From Xylona heveae TC161 (lineage: Eukaryota > Ascomycota > Xylonomycetes > Xylonales > Xylonaceae): a DNA stretch of 64,000 nt. Each line of letters opens with the position of its first letter. Position 1 is the stretch's first letter. The notes under the pieces were generated by a model that was not told the origin of the DNA, made no database searches, and worked only from the letters and a program-made list of their open reading frames with translations. The stretch covers positions 62,001 through 126,000 of the forward strand of contig NW_017264197.1 of the NCBI RefSeq assembly GCF_001619985.1. Direction: 5' to 3'. Of this stretch, positions 3,998 to 48,633 are shown in pieces. Made by a program: the position numbers and the translations under genes.

Positions 3998-5341
3998 ATG
4001 ATTCGCGAGGACCTTATTGAATCTGCGGTTAGTAATTAACTTCACGTGCGCCGAATATTGCTAATGACCCATTAGGTTTCTTGTGAGTACCAGAGCGCCC
4101 CTTGCTAAGCAACCACATTATATCTGACTTTATGAATCAAAGTCCTGCAGGATCCCGGAGTCGCGGCGTCGCCCATTGAGAGGCGGATATCCTTTCTCCA
4201 ATCAAAGAATCTCACGTCGGAAGAGATCGCCGAAGCCCTCGCTCGCACGGGTGAAGACCCTTCGACAATACCGCCACCTACAGATGCAAGTTCTACTTCA
4301 TCTGCATCCGGAAATGCATACCAGAATCAGCAGGTGATACGACGGCAGCAGCCGCCACCGCAATGGGGACATGGAGGCTATCCGAACGGTTTTTGGCAGC
4401 CGCCTCCGCCTGAGTAAGTGCACAGCCTACTCGCACCGATCAACGGAGCTTTGGACTCATACGAGATTACAGGGTTCCGCGCAGGGACTGGCGAGACTGG
4501 TTTATCATGGCTACCGTGATGGGTGGAGTGTCCTATGGCCTCTATGTTATCGCAAAGGTATGGTGGCTACGACCCTGGTTTATTTGGCGGTAGACTAATC
4601 TAGTTGAAGCGTTATATCTACCCTTTGATTGCACCCCCAACACCACCACAGCTAGAGCAGGACAAAGCCTCCATTGACGCCTCATTCGAGAAGGCGTTTG
4701 CGCTATTAGACCAACTCGGCTCAGACACCGAGGCACTCAAAGCAGCAGAGCAAGCACGAACGGACAGGCTAGATTCCGCATTATCAGAAGTTGAAACAGT
4801 CATCTCCGAGCTGAAAGCTGCGAGTAGACGACGAGAAGATGAAGGCGACAGAATTAACCGGGAGGTGAAGAGCCTCAGGACGATGATTCCCAAAGCAATG
4901 GAGGCGCAAAAGGTCAATACAGACACCAGATTACAGGAGCTGAGCACCGAGCTGATGAGTTTGAAAACTCTCATCGGTAACCGCCTTGGTGGAAGCTCTG
5001 TCGGTGCTAAATCACCCGGCGTCAACATGTTTGGTCCTCAGGGAACTGCGAGTGTAAATGGCAGTGGCTTCAATACCCCAGGTCAGGCCACTCCATCCGT
5101 TTCGGCCGGTGGAGTGAGCTCAGTGCAAGGAACAGGCGGCAGCAGCATCTCTCAACCCGCGGCCCCAGCCGCGGCAACAAAACCTGAATCATCCAGCCCC
5201 TTTCCCCTAGGCTCTCTCGGAGCCAAGGCATCAATCCCCGCTTGGCAGATGGCTGCCGCAAACAAGAACAAGCCTGCCACGGATACTCCAGTAAACGGAA
5301 CCGAAAGCAACACACCTGACGAAGCTTCAGGAAGCTCGTAG
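3998..5341 (+). CDS. pex14: peroxisomal membrane protein Pex14 (peroxin-14)
   Basis: Core of the peroxisomal docking complex that receives cargo-loaded Pex5/Pex7. Five exons: 3998-4027, 4076-4082, 4143-4413, 4473-4557 and 4604-5341, giving 376 residues. Exon 2 is a 7-nt microexon; without it the conserved N-terminal motif (SAVSFLQDP) cannot be made. The N-terminal Pex5-binding helical domain covers about residues 1-45 (SPIERRISFLQSKNLTSEEI). A Pro-rich linker follows, then a hydrophobic segment at about 108-130 (WFIMATVMGGVSYGLYVIAK) that is the likely membrane span, then KRYIYPLIAPPTPPQLE, a long coiled coil to about residue 265, and a Ser/Thr/Gly/Ala-rich C-terminus. Length and order match fungal Pex14. 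It is divergent from ndc80. Confidence 0.95.
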
Positions 5342-7371: not shown

Positions 7372-7838
7372 TTATATTGGTGCTAGACGATGGCGCCACT
7401 GGATGAAAGCGTATTTGTTGTTTTAATGTTGATACCCAGACAGTTCATATAAATGACGCCTTGTTCCCCGTGGAAAAACAAAATGATCTGAATGAGCAAA
7501 ATAATCGGGCTACGAAGCTTATGATATTCTTGGAGTATAGCCCCTTTTCCTGACGCCTCTTTCGTTATAATTCGTGTTGTGGCTCGTGGGTTCGTCTTAT
7601 ATTTAAACGCAGGATAAGAGAAGTAATTATGCAGTGAGCCCGATAATTTATGCAACGCTAGACCTGGGTTATGACTTTGGGGAAATCATCGGAGTCCATT
7701 AGCATTAGAACCATCCAATGGCAATAGCGGACAGCAGTGTCAAGGGAAATGCTAGCAAAGAATTGTCTTGATCAGTGATTGGAAGGGTAAACCGGTAGCA
7801 ACGTTTCGGAAGCCTGGTAGTCTGGGTTATGGTGGATA
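7372..7838. other. short convergent intergenic region
   Basis: Lies between the 3' ends of two converging genes and is presumably made of 3' UTRs. No other signal is seen. Confidence 0.5.
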
Positions 7839-32707: not shown

Positions 32708-34620
32708 ATGAGCGTCCAAACCGTTTCTTTCTCCCCCTTTGCGGACCAGAAGCCCGGAACGTAAGTAATCTGATCATTTCTTCCGATGAAGCTTGCCCTT
32801 GGTGTTTGGGGATGGGAGGTACCAGAAAACTGGCCGCTCCTTTCCCTCTTCATCCTTAAAAACTTCTTCTCCGCGACCACTTCACGCTTGAAGATGTGCT
32901 AACAAAATTGGATTTTGAAGTTCCGGACTTCGTAAGAAGGTCACCGTTTTCCAGAAGCCCCACTACAGCGAGGCTTTCGTCACCAGCATCCTTCTTTCCA
33001 TCCCCGAGGGTGTTGAGGGCAGCTTCCTCGTCATCGGTGGTGATGGCCGTTTCTACAACCCCGAGGTTATGCAGCTCATTGCCAAGATTGGCGCTGCCTA
33101 CGGTGTCAAGAAGCTGCTCATCGGCCAGAACGGCATTCTGAGCACGCCCGCCTCTTCCCACATCATCCGCAAGAGACAGGCTACCGGTGGAATTCTCCTC
33201 ACTGCCAGCCACAACCCTGGTGGTAAGTGCCTCTGCGGAAGAAAAGATAATAATAATAATAAAGCGATTGGAACAAAAATACTAATGAATTTGTCTGATT
33301 GCAGGTCCCACCGAAGACTTCGGTATCAAGTACAACTTGGCTAATGGCGCTCCCGCCCCCGAGTCCGTTACCAACAAGATCTTCGAGGTGTCCAAGACCC
33401 TCACCTCGTACAAGATTGCCGACCTTCCCGAGATTGACCTCTCCACCATTGGCACCAAGACCTATGGCTCGCTCGAGGTCGAGATTGTCGACTCCACTGC
33501 AGACTACGTTGAGATGCTCAAGGACATTTTTGACTTCCCCTTGATCAAGTCTTTCCTTGACACCCACAAGGACTTCAAGGTCCTCTTTGACGGCCTTCAC
33601 GGTGTGACTGGCCCCTACGGAAAGGCCATCTTCGAGAAGGAGCTTGGCCTGCCCTCCAACAGCACCCAGAACTGCATCCCCTCCCCCAACTTTGGTGGCG
33701 GTCACCCCGACCCCAACCTGACCTATGCCCACTCGCTGGTCGAGGTTGTCGACAAGAACGGCATCCAGTTTGGTGCTGCTAGTGACGGTGACGGTGACCG
33801 CAACATGATCTACGGCGCCAACACTTTCGTCTCTCCCGGTGACAGCTTGGCCATCATTGCCCACCACGCCAAGCTCATCCCCTACTTCAAGAAGCAGGGT
33901 GTCTACGGTCTTGCCCGTTCCATGCCTACCTCTGGTGCCGTTGACCTGGTCGCCAAGAAGCAGGGTCTTCAGTCCTACGAGGTGCCCACTGGCTGGAAGT
34001 TCTTCTGCGCCCTGTTCGACACCAACAAGATGTCGATTTGCGGTGAGGAGAGTTTCGGCACCGGCAGCAACCACATCCGTGAAAAGGACGGTGTCTGGGC
34101 TGTCATTGCCTGGTTGAACATTATTGCTGGTGTCGCCCAGCAGAAGCCCCATGAGACCCCCAGCATCGCCTCCATCCAGAAGGAGTTCTGGCAAATCTAC
34201 GGCCGTACGTTTTTCACTCGCTACGACTATGAGAATGTTGACGGTGCTGGCGCCTCCAACATGGTTGCTCACGTCAAGGACCTCATCACCACCCAGAAGG
34301 CTACCTTTGTGGGCTCGACTGTCAGCGGCCGCAAGGTCGTTGAGGCCGACGACTTCTCCTACACCGATCTCGACGGCAGCGTCAGCAAGAACCAGGGTAT
34401 CTTCGTCAAGTTTGACGATGGCAGCAGAATCGTTGTCCGTCTGTCGGGCACTGGCAGCAGCGGTGCTACCATCCGTCTGTACATTGAGAAGCACGAGAAT
34501 GACCCCAAGTCCTTTGACCTCGACGCCCAGGACTACCTCAAGGACAACATCACTCTGGCCATTGACTTGCTCAAGCTGAAGGAGTTTGTTGGCCGCACTG
34601 ACCCTGACGTCAAGACCTAA
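32708..34620 (+). CDS. pgm: phosphoglucomutase (glucose-1-P / glucose-6-P)
   Basis: Interconverts glucose 1-phosphate and glucose 6-phosphate, linking glycolysis with glycogen, trehalose and UDP-glucose (cell wall) synthesis; cytosolic. Three exons, 32708-32760, 32921-33222 and 33305-34620, give 556 residues, the usual length. All four active-site loops are present: the phosphoserine loop TASHNPGG (residues 112-119, Ser114), split by intron 2 within its last Gly; the metal loop DGDGDR (279-284); the sugar-binding loop [17 protein letters not shown]; and the phosphate-binding loop [13 protein letters not shown]. Codon use is strongly C-ending, as expected for high expression, which also produces a long antisense open frame that is not a gene. 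The CT-rich promoter supports strong transcription. Confidence 0.98.
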
Positions 34621-35303
34621 ATCAAGTGAAAAGTTGTTGGGTTCGGGGATAAGCTTTGAGATATCCAAACCGCTATCCATGGGCGCTCTTTTTCTTTGTT
34701 GATTTTATCCATTTCCCCCTCATTCTACATTTTATCCTTTTATTTTTTTTTTCCCTTCCCTTTTTAAACACTGCTACGAACTTGATGTCCGTGTTCTTAC
34801 ACTTTTTGGGACTATAATATGTATATTCTCGTATATATACCAGAATTCTAAATGCAAATGATGAGCGCCTAGATTCAGGCATGAAACTCTTCAGTCTTGT
34901 ATCGATTCTTCTTTGTGTTTCAATCCACCATGAGACTTGCCTCGTACTTCTGGCCTAGTCTAGGTTATCCAAATCATCCTTACCCTCCATGTATGTTTCT
35001 TTATGTAACCCATAGTACATGCGTGCCCCTCTGCCGGCGTCTAGCCAACCAGTCCCAACTTCTTTGACTCGAGTCTCTCGACAAAGAAGTCATATCGACC
35101 TACTCTTCACACCATCAACTTAGGTGAAGATTAGTAGCTGGGGCGATTGAAACAAAGAAATGAAAAGCTACTCTAGCCCAGAACACGGTCAGAATGCCTC
35201 AATCAAAGGAGAAAAACAAAAACCAATGGCTACAAAAAAATAGAATACGCACATGGAAGAAAAATAAATACAAAAAAATCGTCGACTTCCTGTGTTTTCT
35301 TTC
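34621..35303. other. phosphoglucomutase 3' flank / spacer before tRNA genes
   Basis: T-rich 3' UTR-type DNA to about 34860, then unremarkable sequence. The A-rich stretch at 35211-35280 lies just past the 3' end of the minus-strand tRNA at 35304, where polymerase III would terminate on its T run (seen as aaaaa on this strand). Confidence 0.5.
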
Positions 35304-35994: not shown

Positions 35995-38777
35995 ATGAGC
36001 AGGCATGGGGGCATGCATATGTCGGGAGCCTCGAGTTCAGGGTCTTATGACTCCGGGAGGAGAACAGATGGAACTTCTCCAAGTTCAGGACGACGCCCGT
36101 ATCCGCATGTCAAAGACCTCGTTACAAGAGCTGTCACCGATGTGAATAGTTACGCTCCGGTGAGTCTTCCCCGGGCGGAGTCATTGGCATTACTTTTGTT
36201 GGAGGAAGGGAAGTGCATTTGTTAACTTGTTCTATAATGCTGTAGCTGCCGAAACTTTTACGCACTGCCGAACTATCTGCCAAGCAGGCAGATAACCTAC
36301 TCAATCTTGAACGATCGCACCCAGACCTAGCATTCGCCGAATACGTCAGAGCGTCTCATATAATATCCGAAGTAATTCCTTACCATAAGGACGCGCCCTC
36401 ATTACACAGTGGACAAGTTGGAGGTAGTAGCGATTGGGCAGCGCTTTGGCGACTAAACAGGGAACTTATCAAGGTCGGGAAACCTTGCAGCAGAATCTCA
36501 AACGGTTCTCTTCCGAAATGCATGTACCCGAAATGCTGACGAAGGGGTGGATATATATAGAAAATCGACGCCCAGCATACAGAGTTTGATGCTGTCAGGA
36601 ATATAATTATCGACGATAACATCTCCAGTGGCGTTAAGCCGACACTGCCGTCAGTAGCATCGTCCCCATCATCACGAACCGTCAGTCGCCCTTCGTCGCG
36701 ACCGCAGTCGGTGCACGGTTACTATCTCAATGGAGATGGCGCAGTCTCGAATTCCGACGGGAGAGCATCTTCACTATTACAGCGGCAGTCCATCGGCGCT
36801 GCGGCTGAACTCCGTTCTGGCCGTGTCACTCCGACGACTTTAAGTGGCTCCGCGATGGCCTCGACGCCTCCGCGAAGGTCGCCATTCCAACATGAAGGGC
36901 CGGAGAGCCTTCTGCGAAGGAGTCCCGGACAGAATATCCCTCCACCCGCCACTTCCCCGGCGAAGTCATCAACCGATGGATTGGCCGAACGTTTTGCTAG
37001 GCTCAGGACCGCTAGCTCAGGCGGTGGCCCGTCTTTGAATGGTCTGCCCCGAAAACTGGTACCGGGCTCTGCAATAGCTCCAGAGATTCCAAATGGTGCA
37101 CCGACGCCCATTGTACGAATGCCTTCACCCAGCCAGTTCATGACTGCTCCTGCTCCGAAATATGCACCCCCAAGCGGTTCAACTACGCCCTCGAACGACC
37201 CTGCCCGCCAGAGCAGGCTGTACGGGCCACGAGATCCACCAGTATCACATCTTGTACCTCCGGCTCCCCCTAAAATCCCATTGAACACTCAAATTCCGTC
37301 GACGCTGCCAAGGGCGCCCAGTCCAACTTATAGTCCTGCGCGCAATTTGCCGGCTCCTTCCAACATCAATCCACCCAGAACCACCGCTAGGAGCATGGTG
37401 AGTTCTGGGCGTCGTCCTGATGCCACGGCTCTCTCTGGGACGACATCGGACGTTGATCAAAGATTCGGCCATACTCCACCAGGTTCTATCAGAAATGGTA
37501 GTGTAGGCTTTGATCCAGGGCGCGTTCCTAAAAGGAAACCAGTCGAAAGAAACTCATTACCCATAACATTAGAGCCCGCAATCACTGCAGCAGAGCTCAG
37601 AGAATATCTCAAATATTTCAACGTCTTGCTCGTCGATCTTCGTGAGCGAGACGAATTTGACGAAGGACACATTTTCGCCACGTCAGTCATCTGCATTGAA
37701 CCAACGGCGCTGAGAATGAACATGTCGGCAGAAGATCTTGAGCAGAGCCTCATCCTCTCACCAGAGTCGGAGCTATCACTCTTTGAAATAAGAGACTCAT
37801 TTGATTTGGTTGTTTACTATGATCAATCGACCTCCTCTGCGGATTTTCTAAAGTCTGCAGGGGGGCACAATTCACAGACGGACTTTCTCAAAGCTTTCTA
37901 CTCTTCCGTGACCGATTTCAATTATGACAGTCCGCTCAAGCGGCCACCAAAACTCTTGCTTGGCGGATTGGAAGCGTGGATTGATCTCGTGGGGCCGCGT
38001 GCGCTCGCGACCTCTGAAACTTCCGCTCCAGGGGCAAAGAACGGCAGGCCGATTTCACGAGTGCCAATGGCAGGTGCTTCGTCCAATCTTTCGCCAAAGA
38101 GGAGGCGCATTAGGGGTTACGATCCGCGAAATGTGGAAGAACAACAGTATTGGCTGGAAAAGGCTCGCAAGGAGAGTTATAGCTATGAGCCACCAGAATT
38201 GTCTGTGGGAGAGGAAGGAGATGGATCGGAAGGTGGTTTCTCAATGGTTCACAGCTATGAAGAGTTTCATAGACGCTATCCCGAGGCTTCGGATCTACAG
38301 CAGTCTATGAGTTCTCCGACTCCGGCTCCAGCTCCATACCAATATCACTCTGCCTCGATACCGCGACCACCCTCTCGGCCAGCTCCTGCAGTACCACGGA
38401 CAAGCTACAGCGGTGTATCGGAGCGAACATTGTCATCACAATCAAGTCGGCCTCCCCATGCATCGCCCGGCACGGCGCCGCCGCTCTACAATTCAACAGG
38501 AGGCCCGAATACTTTTCGAATCAAGCTTCCAGACTCTGGTCTTAAAAATTATGGCATAACGTGTTATATGAATGCTACCCTTCAATGTTTAAGCGCGACT
38601 ATACCTCTGTCGCATTGGCTTCTTATGGACAAGTTCACGTCAGCGTTGCAAGTGAGAAACGCCAAAGGAACAAGAGGCGTCTTGCCACAGTATCTTGCCA
38701 ACTTGTTGAAATGCTTATGGAGTGGAAAAGGACTGGACAAGTCACTCTATTCTTTTCGGGTGAGTCTTCTCTTCTCC

Positions 38778-38816
<39 letters not shown>

Positions 38817-40022
38817 CCCAATACTAATCACCTTTCAAGGAATTTNNNNNNNNNNNNNNNCTACCCTTCAATGTTTAAGCGCGACTATACCTCTGTCGCA
38901 TTGGCTTCTTATGGACAAGTTCACGTCAGCGTTGCAAGTGAGAAACGCCAAAGGATTTATATTCGTTTTTCCACAGTTTCTTCCCAATTTTTTGAAATGC
39001 TTATTGAGTTGAAAAGGACTGTAGAAGTCAGTCTATTATTTTCGTGAGAGTCTTCTCTTCTCCGGTTTTTTTTTTTTTTTTTTTTTGTTTTTTTTGTTTT
39101 TTCCCAATACTAATCACCTTTCAAGGAATTTGCAATCCACGAAAATATCCAATGGGGTGAAAACCGGCAACAAGACGCAAAAGAATTTCTTGATTTTCTA
39201 TTGGACTTGCTGCACGAGGATCTGAATATACATTCTAATCGGCACATGCTTCGACCGTTGAGAGACTCTGAAGAAGAGAGGAGAGAAAGACTGTCGATTG
39301 CGGTGGCATCAAAGTCTGAGTGGAGTCGATATGCGCATCGCAACTGCTCGTACTTGTCAAGCCTATTTGCCGGGCAACACGCAAGCCGGCTCAGGTGCAA
39401 GACATGCAACCGGACATCAACGACATATGAAGCATTTTGGTCAATTAGCGTGGAAATTCCACGCTCGGGAACGAGCAATCTACAAGATTGCCTCCGCAGC
39501 TACTTTCAAGAGGAAAACCTTACCGGCGACGCAGCATGGAAATGTCCTCACTGCAAATGCGCACGAGAGGCCACGAAACGAATTGTGATCACCCGCGTGC
39601 CTCAGCTTCTAGTCGTTCATTTCAAGCGTTTCGCCACCTCAATGAATGGTTCTACCCACAAGGTCCACACGCCCATAGACTTTCCACTGCACGGGCTCAA
39701 TCTCGAACCGTTTGCTATTCCTCCGGCAACGCCCGAGGAGTGTCAGAAAATGGTGTCGTTTGGTTTCGACCAACATCCAGAAGCAGACTATGCGACAAAT
39801 CCGCCTTTTCTCTACGATGCGTATGCTGTCCTCAAGCACATTGGCTCGTCTGCCAATTCTGGCCACTACATAGCCGCGGCCAAGGACACTGGCCGAGGCT
39901 GCTGGCGAGTGTACAATGATACGGAGTACAAGGACATCGATCCGAAAAAGGTAAAGGAGTCGGACCGGCTGCAGAATAAAGAAGCATATATTGTGTTTTA
40001 TATGCGATCTAGCGCTAGGTAG
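35995..40022 (+). CDS. doa4: ubiquitin-specific protease with rhodanese-like domain (Doa4/Ubp4 type)
   Basis: Cysteine protease that removes ubiquitin from endocytic cargo and proteasome substrates; Doa4-type enzymes act at endosomes with ESCRT-III. Exons 35995-36159, 36246-36473, 36561-38759 and 39126-40022 give 1162 residues. A helical MIT-like N-terminus (RTAELSAKQADNLLNLERSH) leads to a disordered Pro/Ser region, then a rhodanese-like domain at about residues 471-600 (NVLLVDLRERDEFDEGHIFA) lacking the catalytic Cys, as in Ubp4/USP8. The USP domain runs from ~784 to the end: Cys box GLKNYGITCYMNATLQCL (Cys799, with oxyanion Asn five before), QQDAKEFLDFLLDLL, zinc ribbon CKTC...CPHC, and His box SSANSGHYIAAAKDTG (His1111) with CWRVYNDTEYKDID. 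The gene looks intact; the Ns and repeat inside it are an assembly fault within intron 3. Confidence 0.93.
38575..39131. repeat. false 271-bp tandem duplication around an N gap (assembly artefact)
   Basis: 38575-38845 and 38861-39131 are two copies of the same 271-bp segment, running from inside the Cys box through the end of exon 3 and intron 3 to the first bases of exon 4. They are separated by 15 Ns (38846-38860). Copy 1 encodes the correct protein and splice donor; copy 2 has a cluster of substitutions, many to T, and a damaged donor. The segment includes a ~38-base T run. This is what two unmerged contig ends at a homopolymer look like. Confidence 0.9.
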
Positions 40023-44304: not shown

Positions 44305-47300
44305 TTAAGCCTTTACCCGACGCTTGTATTTGCGAGGATCTAAATGTATAGAAAACGGTGATATCATTAGCCGTGTCGAGAAAATATAAGCGACATGTCA
44401 GAGATCGTTAGGGGCAAAAAAGTCAAATGGAAAAGAAGGCAAACATGAGAAAGGTCGTGGGGGAAATCCAATGGCATTAGACGGCGGATAAAGAATCCGT
44501 AAATACCATGATATTGATGACGAAGACAAAGAAAGCCATATAGGACTACCCTTCGTTAAGAAGGGTCTTCGTTAAGAAGGGAGGCAAAGGTGGCTAAGCA
44601 AAGAAGACTCATCACACATACCTTTTCGAGACATTCTGACTCTATCTCTCGTGCCTAGAGGAAGAAAGTCACGCGGAAGGGTTAGCACATGTGCGGCTCA
44701 GCAGTACACCAGTAAACCTTAAATGCATGAATGCAGCACGGAGGGCGGGAGATAAGGCAGGTGGGAAAAGAGACATGAGACGAGCGGACATATGTCCGGG
44801 GTGATGCGGGCTAAGCCCGGACTGGCTTAGTGGGGAAAGTGCGGCTACTCCCACAACTGTGGAGAGGAAGAATTGCGGGGTGTGGGGTCGGCGCTAAGCG
44901 AGCGATCCGGTGGACCGATGCCATGCTGCTGGAAGCCGGCGGCATGCCCCCCCATCGTCCGGGAGTTGAGTCCGAACAAATTGACCCGGAGAGGTGTACG
45001 CAGAGGGAGGAGGGATCTTATAGGAAAAAGCTTACCTTTACCGCCTTCCCAGAATCCACTAGATGTCTTGCCCGTTAACACTTTATGGCAAGCCACGCAG
45101 TCCTCTGGTCGATAATTTTGTTCACGAGAACCTGGAAAACGGTCATTCGTTAGTAACGGCGTCCACTGCCAAGAAGCACAGGGAAAAAGTCAATCGGCGA
45201 ATCGTACAAAAGCCACTGTTTAGTAAAATTCAGTCAGCTGGGTATCCCAAAATTGCATTTAGTGTTCAATCAAAGAATTCTGTGGGTATATTTGCCATAG
45301 GGTAAAAGCAGCATGGACTCACCATATCATCCGGTTGGCGTGTTCGTTGGGGTGGTCGCTCGCTTCATCGTGACATCTGCAAATGCACCCCCCACGTTAG
45401 CAGTCAATCTTCCCACCATCTGTGTGTGCAAATCCGGGATTTGGTAGTATCTGACCTGTCACATGCAAACACTTTCGCACAACAGCCGAATCTGCCACTA
45501 TCGTCAGCCCTGTAAACTAGCGCAAACCTCCCCCGGTAATAATTCCGCAAGAGGTGACGAAAGAGGCTGGCATCTCCCATGTGTGGGAAGCCCCCGAATA
45601 TGGTACGCACCGGAACCATCGGTAGCTCTTTCCATAGTGTTTGCACCGTCCGCGCCGGGGCAACTCTTGTCCCGCGATGATTCCGAGGTTCTCTTTGATC
45701 TAAGTTTCGACCCTTGTCAGTTGCTTTCCCAGGTTTGTCAATTACGGGGGCGATCGCAGCTTACCTTTTTCCGGGGTGGAGCCTGACTGGCGCGAACTGT
45801 CAAGTGAACACCTTTTGTTTAGCCTTTCTGACTCTTCTCTATGGGGAAATTTCTCTTTGGCGTGGGCGCAATAGACTTTGAGGACCCCGAAAAGAGAAAA
45901 TCTGAAGACGAGCGGATGATTAAATGACGTCCGAGAGTACTCACCAGCAGCAGCGCTTATCCTTAGCAGCCTAATCTCCGGCATTTTGAATGCTAACCCA
46001 TCATCTCCAATTTAGCTTATGATCAGTAGCAGAAGCAGCTGCATGAGGCACAAACTTACACATTTTGCGGTGACATTCCCTGCAGATCGCCATAGCTGAG
46101 TCGCCTCGCACGGCAACAACTCCGGCAGTGTACGCGCTCGAGCACTCCGCACACGTTGGGACAAAAGTGCTGAACACAAAAGACGTTAAGCAAATAACCT
46201 AATCTGAGACTACAAAACAGGCTACCTACCTTGGAAGAAGATCAGCAACGATGCAACCGTCGCAGTCGAGGTAACCTGCTCGAACAGAGTTTGCATGCAT
46301 CAATTCTTTACGAAATCCTGTAGTAATTGTAAACGAGTTGCCCCTTTTTCATTCCGAAAGGGGCGGATGGAAAAAGAAAAACAAACCTATGCTAAATGCT
46401 TTGGCGCATTTCTTGCAATATTCGGTGCGCAGGCCAGATGCGTCCCGTTTGGAGTTGTCTCGAAGATTGGTAATATCTGTTAGATCTTTGCATCGGTCGC
46501 ATTTTACAGTAAGACTCAAGATGGTCAACTCGAGTAATTCAACACCGTAGAGTTCAAGGTACGGGAATGAGAGCAGAATTCCAGATTCTGCATTGCTCGC
46601 AGGTGCAGATGAAGACTCGGTCTGAGGCTCGACCTTCTCCTCTGATCCCTCCTCTGCTTCTTCATCCGCAGAATCGCTGCTGGCGAAGTCGCTGTCTGAA
46701 TACTCGTCTGATTCATCTCTGGTGTCCCACTCTGGTGGCCGTGGAATGACCTTGACATGGCTCTTGTCCGTCTCCTGTTCAACATTCGACGGAGGTGCAT
46801 CGGACACGGTCTGAGGCTCTGCAATTGTTAGTGCAGACATGTCAATACTGACTTCTGCCGCCTTTTCCTCATGTAAAGGCGTTGTTGCCATTGTATGCAT
46901 ATTTTGCGACAGATAGTTAATATGTCCAAGCAAATTGACATCTGGGTTTTCAGCTGCTCTCTTTTCAAACGCCTTGACAGTATTTTCAGCAGCATCTGGG
47001 TTGACGCCTAACAATTCCACCGTGCAAGGCTCCACATTGTAACGTGCAGGCACGATGAGCCGCACAGACTTGATAGACTGCAGAGGCACAGGCAGATCGC
47101 CCCGCTTGCGCGGCTCGATTGGAATGCTATAGCTTAATCCATCTGGAGATTTGGAAAACATGGGAAGCCTGCCCAGCCGAGCTTCCAACTGACGAGTCTC
47201 CATTTCGCGCTTCTGCCGAGCTTGCGCCTCCTGTGCCGGGCTCACTGCTGCGGGACGCGCCTTGACCGTTGCAGGTTTCTGAGCTGACAGAGGGGCAGCA

Positions 47301-48633
47301 GCTGGCGCTTGCTGCGCTGGAACTGCTTGAGGTGCTGGGGCCGGAGCCTTTGCAGGAGATGGATTCTGCTCGCTGCCAGAGCGAACATTAGGAATTAGTT
47401 TGATAGTCGCAGCTTTTTCGCCAGTCAAAAGATCTTCCAGGCGTCTGTCTAGGGCATTCATCAGTCCCAAGAGCGTCAGCCTTGGCGTTTTCGCGGCTAA
47501 TTCATCAAAGCCTTTCTCGACATTGATTTGATAGCCTCTGCCCATCTCTTTGTTCATCACTCTGAGAGAAGGCATGCTGCCAGCAGCGGGATAACCGGAC
47601 GGGACATGCAAGATGCATTCCAACGCCTCAATGTCGAATGGAAAATCCGGATCCGATGGGGCCATGTTAATGTGAAACGCTGTTGCGCCATTGGTAGATG
47701 ACTCCTCTGGCGAGTACCGTCGACGTAATTGCTGAATTTCAAACTGCCTTGGATCATGCTTTTGCGCAGTAGAAACAGGCTTCTGGACAACTCGTGAAGC
47801 ATCCACTGGCCCCGGTAGGTATCGACGGCCTTGGGAGCGGGATTTCGGTTCTTTGACTTGATCGGCGCCAGACGGTTGTCCCGCGCGTGTTGGTTCGAGA
47901 TGATTGTTGTTGTCGTTGCCGCCGCGGGATGATTGAGCATGGCGTTCTTGCATCTGACCACGATCCGCATGTGGCTGTCCGTTTCCTGATGCCACAAGCC
48001 TTGAGCGGTCATGGACAAAGGGGCACGTACTACCTGCACGACACCCTACATGATCACCCCCAAAATAACAAAATTAATTACAATTCAACAAGGGGAAAAA
48101 AAAAAATAATGCATAAGCATTGATTCCGAGCTTTGATCGCCAATGGCCTGCATGCAGGAGAGGGCAAGCATTTTTGCCAATCGTGCCCCCCACCCCATCC
48201 AAGGCTGCATAAAATCTCAGGCAGCCAGACACATCCGGCAGGACAGATGCAGGGAAAAGGCAGGGAAAAACAAGAGTCAAAAAATGCGCAGAACTGCAGC
48301 GCGTGGGTTCACAGAGTGGTCGAGAGGGAGTGAGGTCGAGGTCATGGGTAAAGGCGCAGTGGAAGAATTACCATTTTTGGAACCAAAATACCGACAGAGC
48401 GGTCTCTGCTTGTCTCTTTTCGCGCGCGGAGGATTACTCGGAGGGTTGCTCGATGCCAACGCAGAGGTCGGCGGACCTTGTCAGGTGAGCCAGCTGACCA
48501 GACGAACAGTTGCAGGTACTCGCCAACGCATCAATCAATATTTCCATGACTTACCTCGCGGGGTGTCGCCTCCACCACTTCCACCTGCGCCATCCGTGGA
48601 GCTGGGAACATCTGAAGCACCACTGGGATGCAT
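44305..48633 (-). CDS. CCCH and CHY zinc-finger protein
   Basis: Fourteen exons: 48633-48555, 48476-48372, 48045-46387, 46317-46230, 46169-46060, 45992-45945, 45796-45765, 45699-45611, 45491-45456, 45376-45323, 45215-45208, 45131-45036, 44654-44622 and 44339-44305 (823 residues). A CCCH finger (C-x8-C-x5-C-x3-H: CRYFGSKNG, then CRAGSTCPFVH) is assembled across introns 1-2. Then an acidic/Pro-rich middle, CxxC pairs (CDRCKDLTD; TEYCKKC; DCDGCIVADLLP; TCAECSS; CRECHRK), and the CHY domain: GRCKHYGKSYRWFRFGC, KVFACDRCHDEASDHPNEHA, NRMICGFCSREQ, CVACHKVLTGK, SGFWEGGKGTRD, ending SRKDPRKYKRRVKA. Exon 11 is an 8-nt microexon needed for ICGFCSREQ. CHY proteins bind zinc and some act with E3 ligases (Pirh2, plant MIEL/BRUTUS); no RING is seen here. 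The CCCH finger suggests RNA binding. The ATG at 48633 is the least certain part. Confidence 0.9.

Follow-up and report, generated by a model that had tools for sequence, protein, structure and literature searches.

Coding exons of a few nucleotides have been published from several fungi, down to a length of 1 nt, and the exon treated here is therefore to be regarded as a correction of a gene model rather than as a new phenomenon. One of the fungi concerned, Phanerochaete chrysosporium, is a basidiomycete. Its P450 genes resemble the CHY zinc-finger gene considered here in that exons down to 6 bp lie amid short introns, the difference being that these are P450 genes (PMC1184071). A 1-nt exon in the CYP621A P450 genes of Fusarium was described for 20 orthologues, with RNA reads in two species (PMC12940212). 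Like the CHY exon it is tiny, has canonical AG..GT borders, keeps the phase within a conserved motif and has the support of an intronless relative; nevertheless, it has 1 nt and is confirmed by RNA, whereas the CHY exon has 8 nt and is predicted from the sequence of one genome. The microexon of Xlr2 from Trichoderma virens likewise carries zinc-ligand cysteines and was missed by gene prediction (PMC11121469), but it has 20 nt and is glucose-regulated, whereas no sign of regulation was noticed for the 8-nt CHY exon. Exon II of Aspergillus niger rtnA is also small, lies beside short introns and can be lost via a stwintron (PMC6616335); it has 15 nt, its stwintron is of the [D5,6] type and was shown by RT-PCR, whereas the GT at the CHY junction is only a possibility. 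For A. nidulans, Table 4 of PMC2397502 counts a single cassette exon whose boundaries are unambiguous, and the mean length of cassette exons is given there as 8. Among the papers listed for CHY zinc fingers and fungi, none dealt with the gene studied here, as judged by title and beginning of the abstract.

In the window, i.e., the whole stretch of 64 kb (64,000 nucleotides) of Xylona heveae DNA that was analysed, the CHY gene very probably includes an 8-base exon which provides a zinc finger with two of its metal-binding cysteines. The exon and its surroundings, as predicted from the sequence and the spliced model, are as follows:

44305..48633, minus strand: host gene, modelled with 14 exons and 823 aa, with a weak CCCH finger near the N-terminus and a C-terminal zf-CHY domain
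45323..45376, minus strand: preceding exon, 54 nt, CHDEASDHPNEHANRMI-(TG), with the 3' end ...CGG ATG ATA TG at 45323
45216..45322, minus strand: upstream flanking intron, 107 nt, GTGAGT...AAACAG, with the branch-like GCTGAC starting at -23
45215..45208, minus strand: predicted 8-nt microexon TGGCTTTT, flanked by aaacag and gtacga
45132..45207, minus strand: downstream flanking intron, 76 nt, GTACGA...TTCCAG, with the branch-like ACTAAC starting at -23
45036..45131, minus strand: following exon, 96 nt, (GT)-SREQNYRPEDCVACHK..., whose onset at 45131 is GTTCTCGT

The borders which the earlier note had assigned to this exon (end of the preceding exon at 45323, exon at 45215..45208, start of the following exon at 45131) proved exact. 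Through its two junctions TGGCTTTT contributes to the codons TG+T, GGC, TTT and T+GT and thereby gives C-G-F-C, so that an intron interrupts each of the two cysteine codons, the first as TG|T (upstream junction) and the second as T|GT (downstream junction), in agreement with the proposal that zinc-ligand cysteines are divided over both junctions. The exon is far below the usual exon size, has canonical splice sites on both sides and is accompanied by branch elements in both introns. Moreover, it is required for the frame together with the conserved motif; the stwintron product discussed below keeps the frame without the CxxC.

All GT-AG paths with one or two introns, nested ones included, were enumerated between fixed points in the flanking exons, with each intron having at least 40 nt. 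No one-step path stayed open. Among the two-step paths there were two open products: MICGFCSREQ, which includes the 8-nt exon, and MICSREQ, from which it is missing. Permitting GC donors added a single-intron product (GC-AG) as well as exons of 17 nt and 38 nt, which insert 3 and 10 residues, respectively, after CGFC. The claim that no direct splice keeps the frame thus holds for GT-AG introns, but one GC-AG path is open; the earlier note had also missed the open stwintron path and the two GC-donor exons.

For the scoring against zf-CHY, all products received a common upstream context and truncated products ended at their own stop. The microexon product ranked first of the seven scored with 40.4 bits, followed by the 17-nt variant (36.5), retention of the second intron (35.6), the stwintron product (34.7), the 38-nt variant (34.4), the single GC intron (31.9) and the skipped form (31.4). 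The margin over the next product is modest (3.9 bits), and none of the seven falls below the cut-off of 31.3, although the skipped form barely reaches it. The 8-nt exon accordingly restores the CxxC of zf-CHY and outscores the six alternatives tried, which bears out the earlier claim that it yields the family motif. Direct single-intron splicing was rejected, given that no GT-AG path is open and that the GC-AG path loses both cysteines, and so were the longer GC-donor exons for their lower scores. Skipping of the 8-nt exon reads MIWFS-stop, retention of the first intron MIW-stop and retention of the second MICGFCTIRRLTFSLCFLAVDAVTNE-stop, i.e., 20 residues beyond CGFC; in each of these cases the protein ends within 25 codons.

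The modelled exons of the host gene, 14 in number, are all in frame through to the stop. In the full protein of 823 aa, zf-CHY (PF05495) was matched at residues 726-786 with 35.3 bits (curated cut-off 31.3), and in the C-terminal 133 aa with 40.4 bits over profile positions 1-63 of 68. Small exons follow one another in the 3' part of the gene, and the internal exons of at most 36 nt have lengths of 32, 36, 8 and 33 nt. Those accompanying the microexon in the spliced model are:

45765..45796, minus strand: 32-nt exon, upstream of the CHY domain
45456..45491, minus strand: 36-nt exon, within the same CHY domain (GCCAKVFACD)
44622..44654, minus strand: 33-nt exon, downstream of the CHY domain and less certain because it lies outside the Pfam match

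The looser branch pattern RCTRAY is present in 8 of the 13 host-gene introns and absent in 5. At the other end of the protein, the models for the N-terminal CCCH finger scored under their cut-off. An intron interrupts this finger (CRYFGSKNGCRAGSTCPFVH) as well, between the exons 48372-48476 and 46387-48045 (both minus strand); with 326 nt, this intron is the second longest among the 13 of the model.

A zf-CHY domain without such interruption occurs elsewhere in the same genome. The six-frame search of the whole genome (24.3 Mb, 17 contigs) returned one match, with 77.2 bits:

C2:2192325-2192522 of this genome (locus L001): second CHY gene (RING/CHY-type), with the CHY domain and its CxxC in one uninterrupted frame

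This gene is taken by us to carry a RING, a label given from motifs in its sequence. The CHY gene of the window was not returned by this exon-by-exon search, which shows that introns hide the domain. Alignment of the two sequences gave 11 identical Cys/His columns, both microexon cysteines included; C17 of the window protein is not among them. The solved RCHY1 CHY domains align in the same register with weak E-values (0.024, 0.029 and 0.14); these three and a polyketide synthase structure (E 0.2), which was taken as a chance match, were the 4 sequences at E<=1. Scans of viral and prokaryote collections yielded 5 pattern hits and 0 relatives with the full protein (viral_contigs), and 45 pattern hits and 0 relatives with the C-terminal 133 aa (genome_contigs).

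The strength of the splice signals was judged with a matrix self-trained on this genome, and a self-trained codon-usage gene finder, run on 274 kb for the microexon count, predicted 135 genes with 286 introns. The donor of the upstream intron, GTGAGT, scores 5.99, that of the downstream intron, GTACGA, 2.39 and the junctional GTGGCT 0.35. The second donor (TTT|GTACGA) is weak, with lower scores in 13% of the 134 self-trained donors; donors beginning with GTACG are nonetheless common in this genome (31 of the 286 predicted introns, 3 being GTACGA). Lengths of 107 and 76 nt are unremarkable for the flanking introns; in the self-trained set the median was 76 nt. RCTRAC in the zone from -45 to -14 of both introns was found in 0.09% of 20,000 mononucleotide shuffles. 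Furthermore, the 191-nt interval was shuffled 20,000 times by dinucleotides with its ends kept. An in-frame exon of at most 12 nt arose in 15.7% of these shuffles, but one which restores CGxC in 11 of 20,000, or in 2 of 20,000 if the donor had to be GTRNG; for exons of up to 30 nt these CGxC counts were 17 and 0 of 20,000, respectively. Chance thus readily produces a tiny exon that only keeps the frame, but rarely one that restores the motif as well.

It is highly probable that the 8 nt at 45215..45208 form a coding exon of the CHY gene which is included constitutively and spliced by intron definition, with its two introns being removed sequentially. Fungi were inferred to splice predominantly via intron definition (PMC2397502), and this mode is regarded as the default in Ascomycota (PMC6616335). 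Each of the short flanking introns would then be recognised across its own length, and the size of 8 nt should be no obstacle because intron definition would spare the bridging of the exon. The introns would go one after the other, either removal placing the 8 nt into an exon of normal size: they merge into a 62-nt exon if the upstream intron leaves first and into a 104-nt exon if the downstream one does. Since GTGAGT clearly outscores GTACGA, the upstream intron is presumably excised first. Inclusion of the 8 nt would supply the CxxC knuckle of the CHY domain, and an mRNA that skips them or retains an intron would be non-functional. As splicing errors at this site give an early stop, constitutive inclusion is favoured over a switch; the arrangement most likely originated as two introns lying 8 nt apart and not as a regulatory device.

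Several other readings of the interval have to be weighed against constitutive inclusion. Once the 107-nt intron is out, the G at 45323 is followed directly by the T at 45215. The resulting junction (...ATATG|TGGCTTTTGTACGA) makes the possible donor GTGGCT, so that an external intron would receive its donor through the loss of an internal one, with the frame open. By this stwintron, made up of the whole 191 nt plus one G, the 8 nt and that G would be removed, 45324 would be joined to 45131 and the protein would read MI-C-SREQ, being three residues (CGF) shorter. Two nested orders reach this product, which is the only other open outcome of one- and two-step GT-AG splicing and which, as given above, exceeds the zf-CHY cut-off too. 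Stwintrons of the [D1,2] type occur in fungi (PMC12403724), and a stwintron mediates the skipping of the 15-nt exon in A. niger rtnA (PMC6616335). Nevertheless, the CxxC knuckle is gone, the zf-CHY score drops by 5.7 bits and GTGGCT deviates from the donor consensus, scoring below the training threshold of 1 and far below GTACGA. None of the 286 predicted introns starts with GTGGCT and 1 of 286 starts with GTGGC, a count that is partly circular because the gene finder barred donors scoring below 1. That the stwintron accounts for the interval is thus very unlikely, and we think that its product is minor or unused, as the knuckle is destroyed and the donor poor. A related idea, very unlikely in its own right, is that the 191-nt interval works as a two-way in-frame switch, in which GTGGCT and GTACGA, 9 nt further downstream, compete after removal of the first intron and yield domains with CGFC or with C. 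Were this true, one and the same element could act either as a microexon or as a stwintron, and the sequence in which the introns leave would set the metal binding of the protein. The open stwintron route offers a direct test of how splice order bears on the fate of a microexon in an intron-defining organism, and proof that its product is made as well would lift the CHY case above the known tiny exons of fungi.

Regulation could also act by conditional skipping of a cassette microexon, which would serve as a switch by shifting the frame and cutting the protein short or by destabilising the mRNA. The glucose-regulated 20-nt exon with zinc-ligand cysteines in T. virens Xlr2 is a precedent (PMC11121469), but 8 nt is no multiple of three, the skipped transcript stops after MIWFS, and cassette exons make up on average 3% of cassette and retained-intron events in fungi and protists (PMC2397502). 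Such a switch is highly improbable, and condition-dependent skipping of the 8-nt exon finds no support here. That an assembly error or a pseudogene underlies the interval, the microexon being a chance fit around a frame-breaking indel, could be suspected from the gap and duplicated patch elsewhere in the window (38.7-39.1 kb); the rarity of CGxC-restoring exons among the shuffles and the modelled exons running in frame to the stop speak against it and make it extremely improbable.

According to the earlier note, the exon was the second microexon in the window. An exon with evidence of a like kind was found in PEX14, although the one originally intended may have been another. It was spotted by eye when five stretches of the window that surround intron junctions were inspected:

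4076..4082, plus strand: 7-nt microexon GTTTCTT of PEX14, whose start codon lies at 3998; its flanking introns have 48 nt (4028-4075) and 60 nt (4083-4142)

Inclusion of this exon makes PEX14 read MIREDLIESAVSFLQDPGVAASP, with a Pex14_N score of 68.8 bits, compared with 43.0 bits and 53.3 bits for the open single-intron alternatives SADP and AVILQDP. All three scored forms lie above the Pex14_N cut-off of 23.2; the enumeration gave a fourth open product, AVNP, outside the three scored. Skipping of the 7 nt breaks the frame and retention of either intron leads to a stop. The pattern RCTRAY was not found in the second intron of the pair (4083-4142). The gain in domain score is larger for the PEX14 than for the CHY microexon. 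In the library searched, PEX14 and microexon occurred together in no paper.

The further suggestion that this lineage splices such exons routinely is compatible with two microexons below 10 nt in 64 kb, but two cases only suggest it and give no rate. On the 274 kb, the gene finder, with any exon size allowed, proposed 5 exons of at most 24 nt, neither of the two supported microexons being among them, and it also failed to predict the 3' part of the CHY gene. It is too insensitive, and consequently no microexon frequency is claimed. Since codon-usage prediction missed both microexons, automatic annotation is likely to err on the CHY gene model, and a wrong model would remove the cysteine pair from the metal-binding motif. 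Exons below 10 nt may well be under-counted in this fungus, as judged by the 7-nt and 8-nt exons in one 64-kb window. A weak ab initio candidate for a 9-nt exon (TGGTTGACG, score gain 4.23) was noted at about 7407-7415 on the minus strand of locus L021 (C5:323407-323415 of genome G000; 261415..261407 of the sample).

Two further observations concern other parts of the window. At 38650-39140 (plus strand), within the gene of a ubiquitin C-terminal hydrolase, two diverged copies of the same coding patch (with, e.g., AAGTGAGAAACGCCAAAGGA twice) flank a run of N accompanied by poly-T tracts, and the sequence there seems to have been mis-assembled locally at a gap. At 33199-34704 (minus strand), an open frame of 501 aa runs antisense to a phosphoglucomutase gene (33289-34620, plus strand) and is probably a by-product of strong codon bias.
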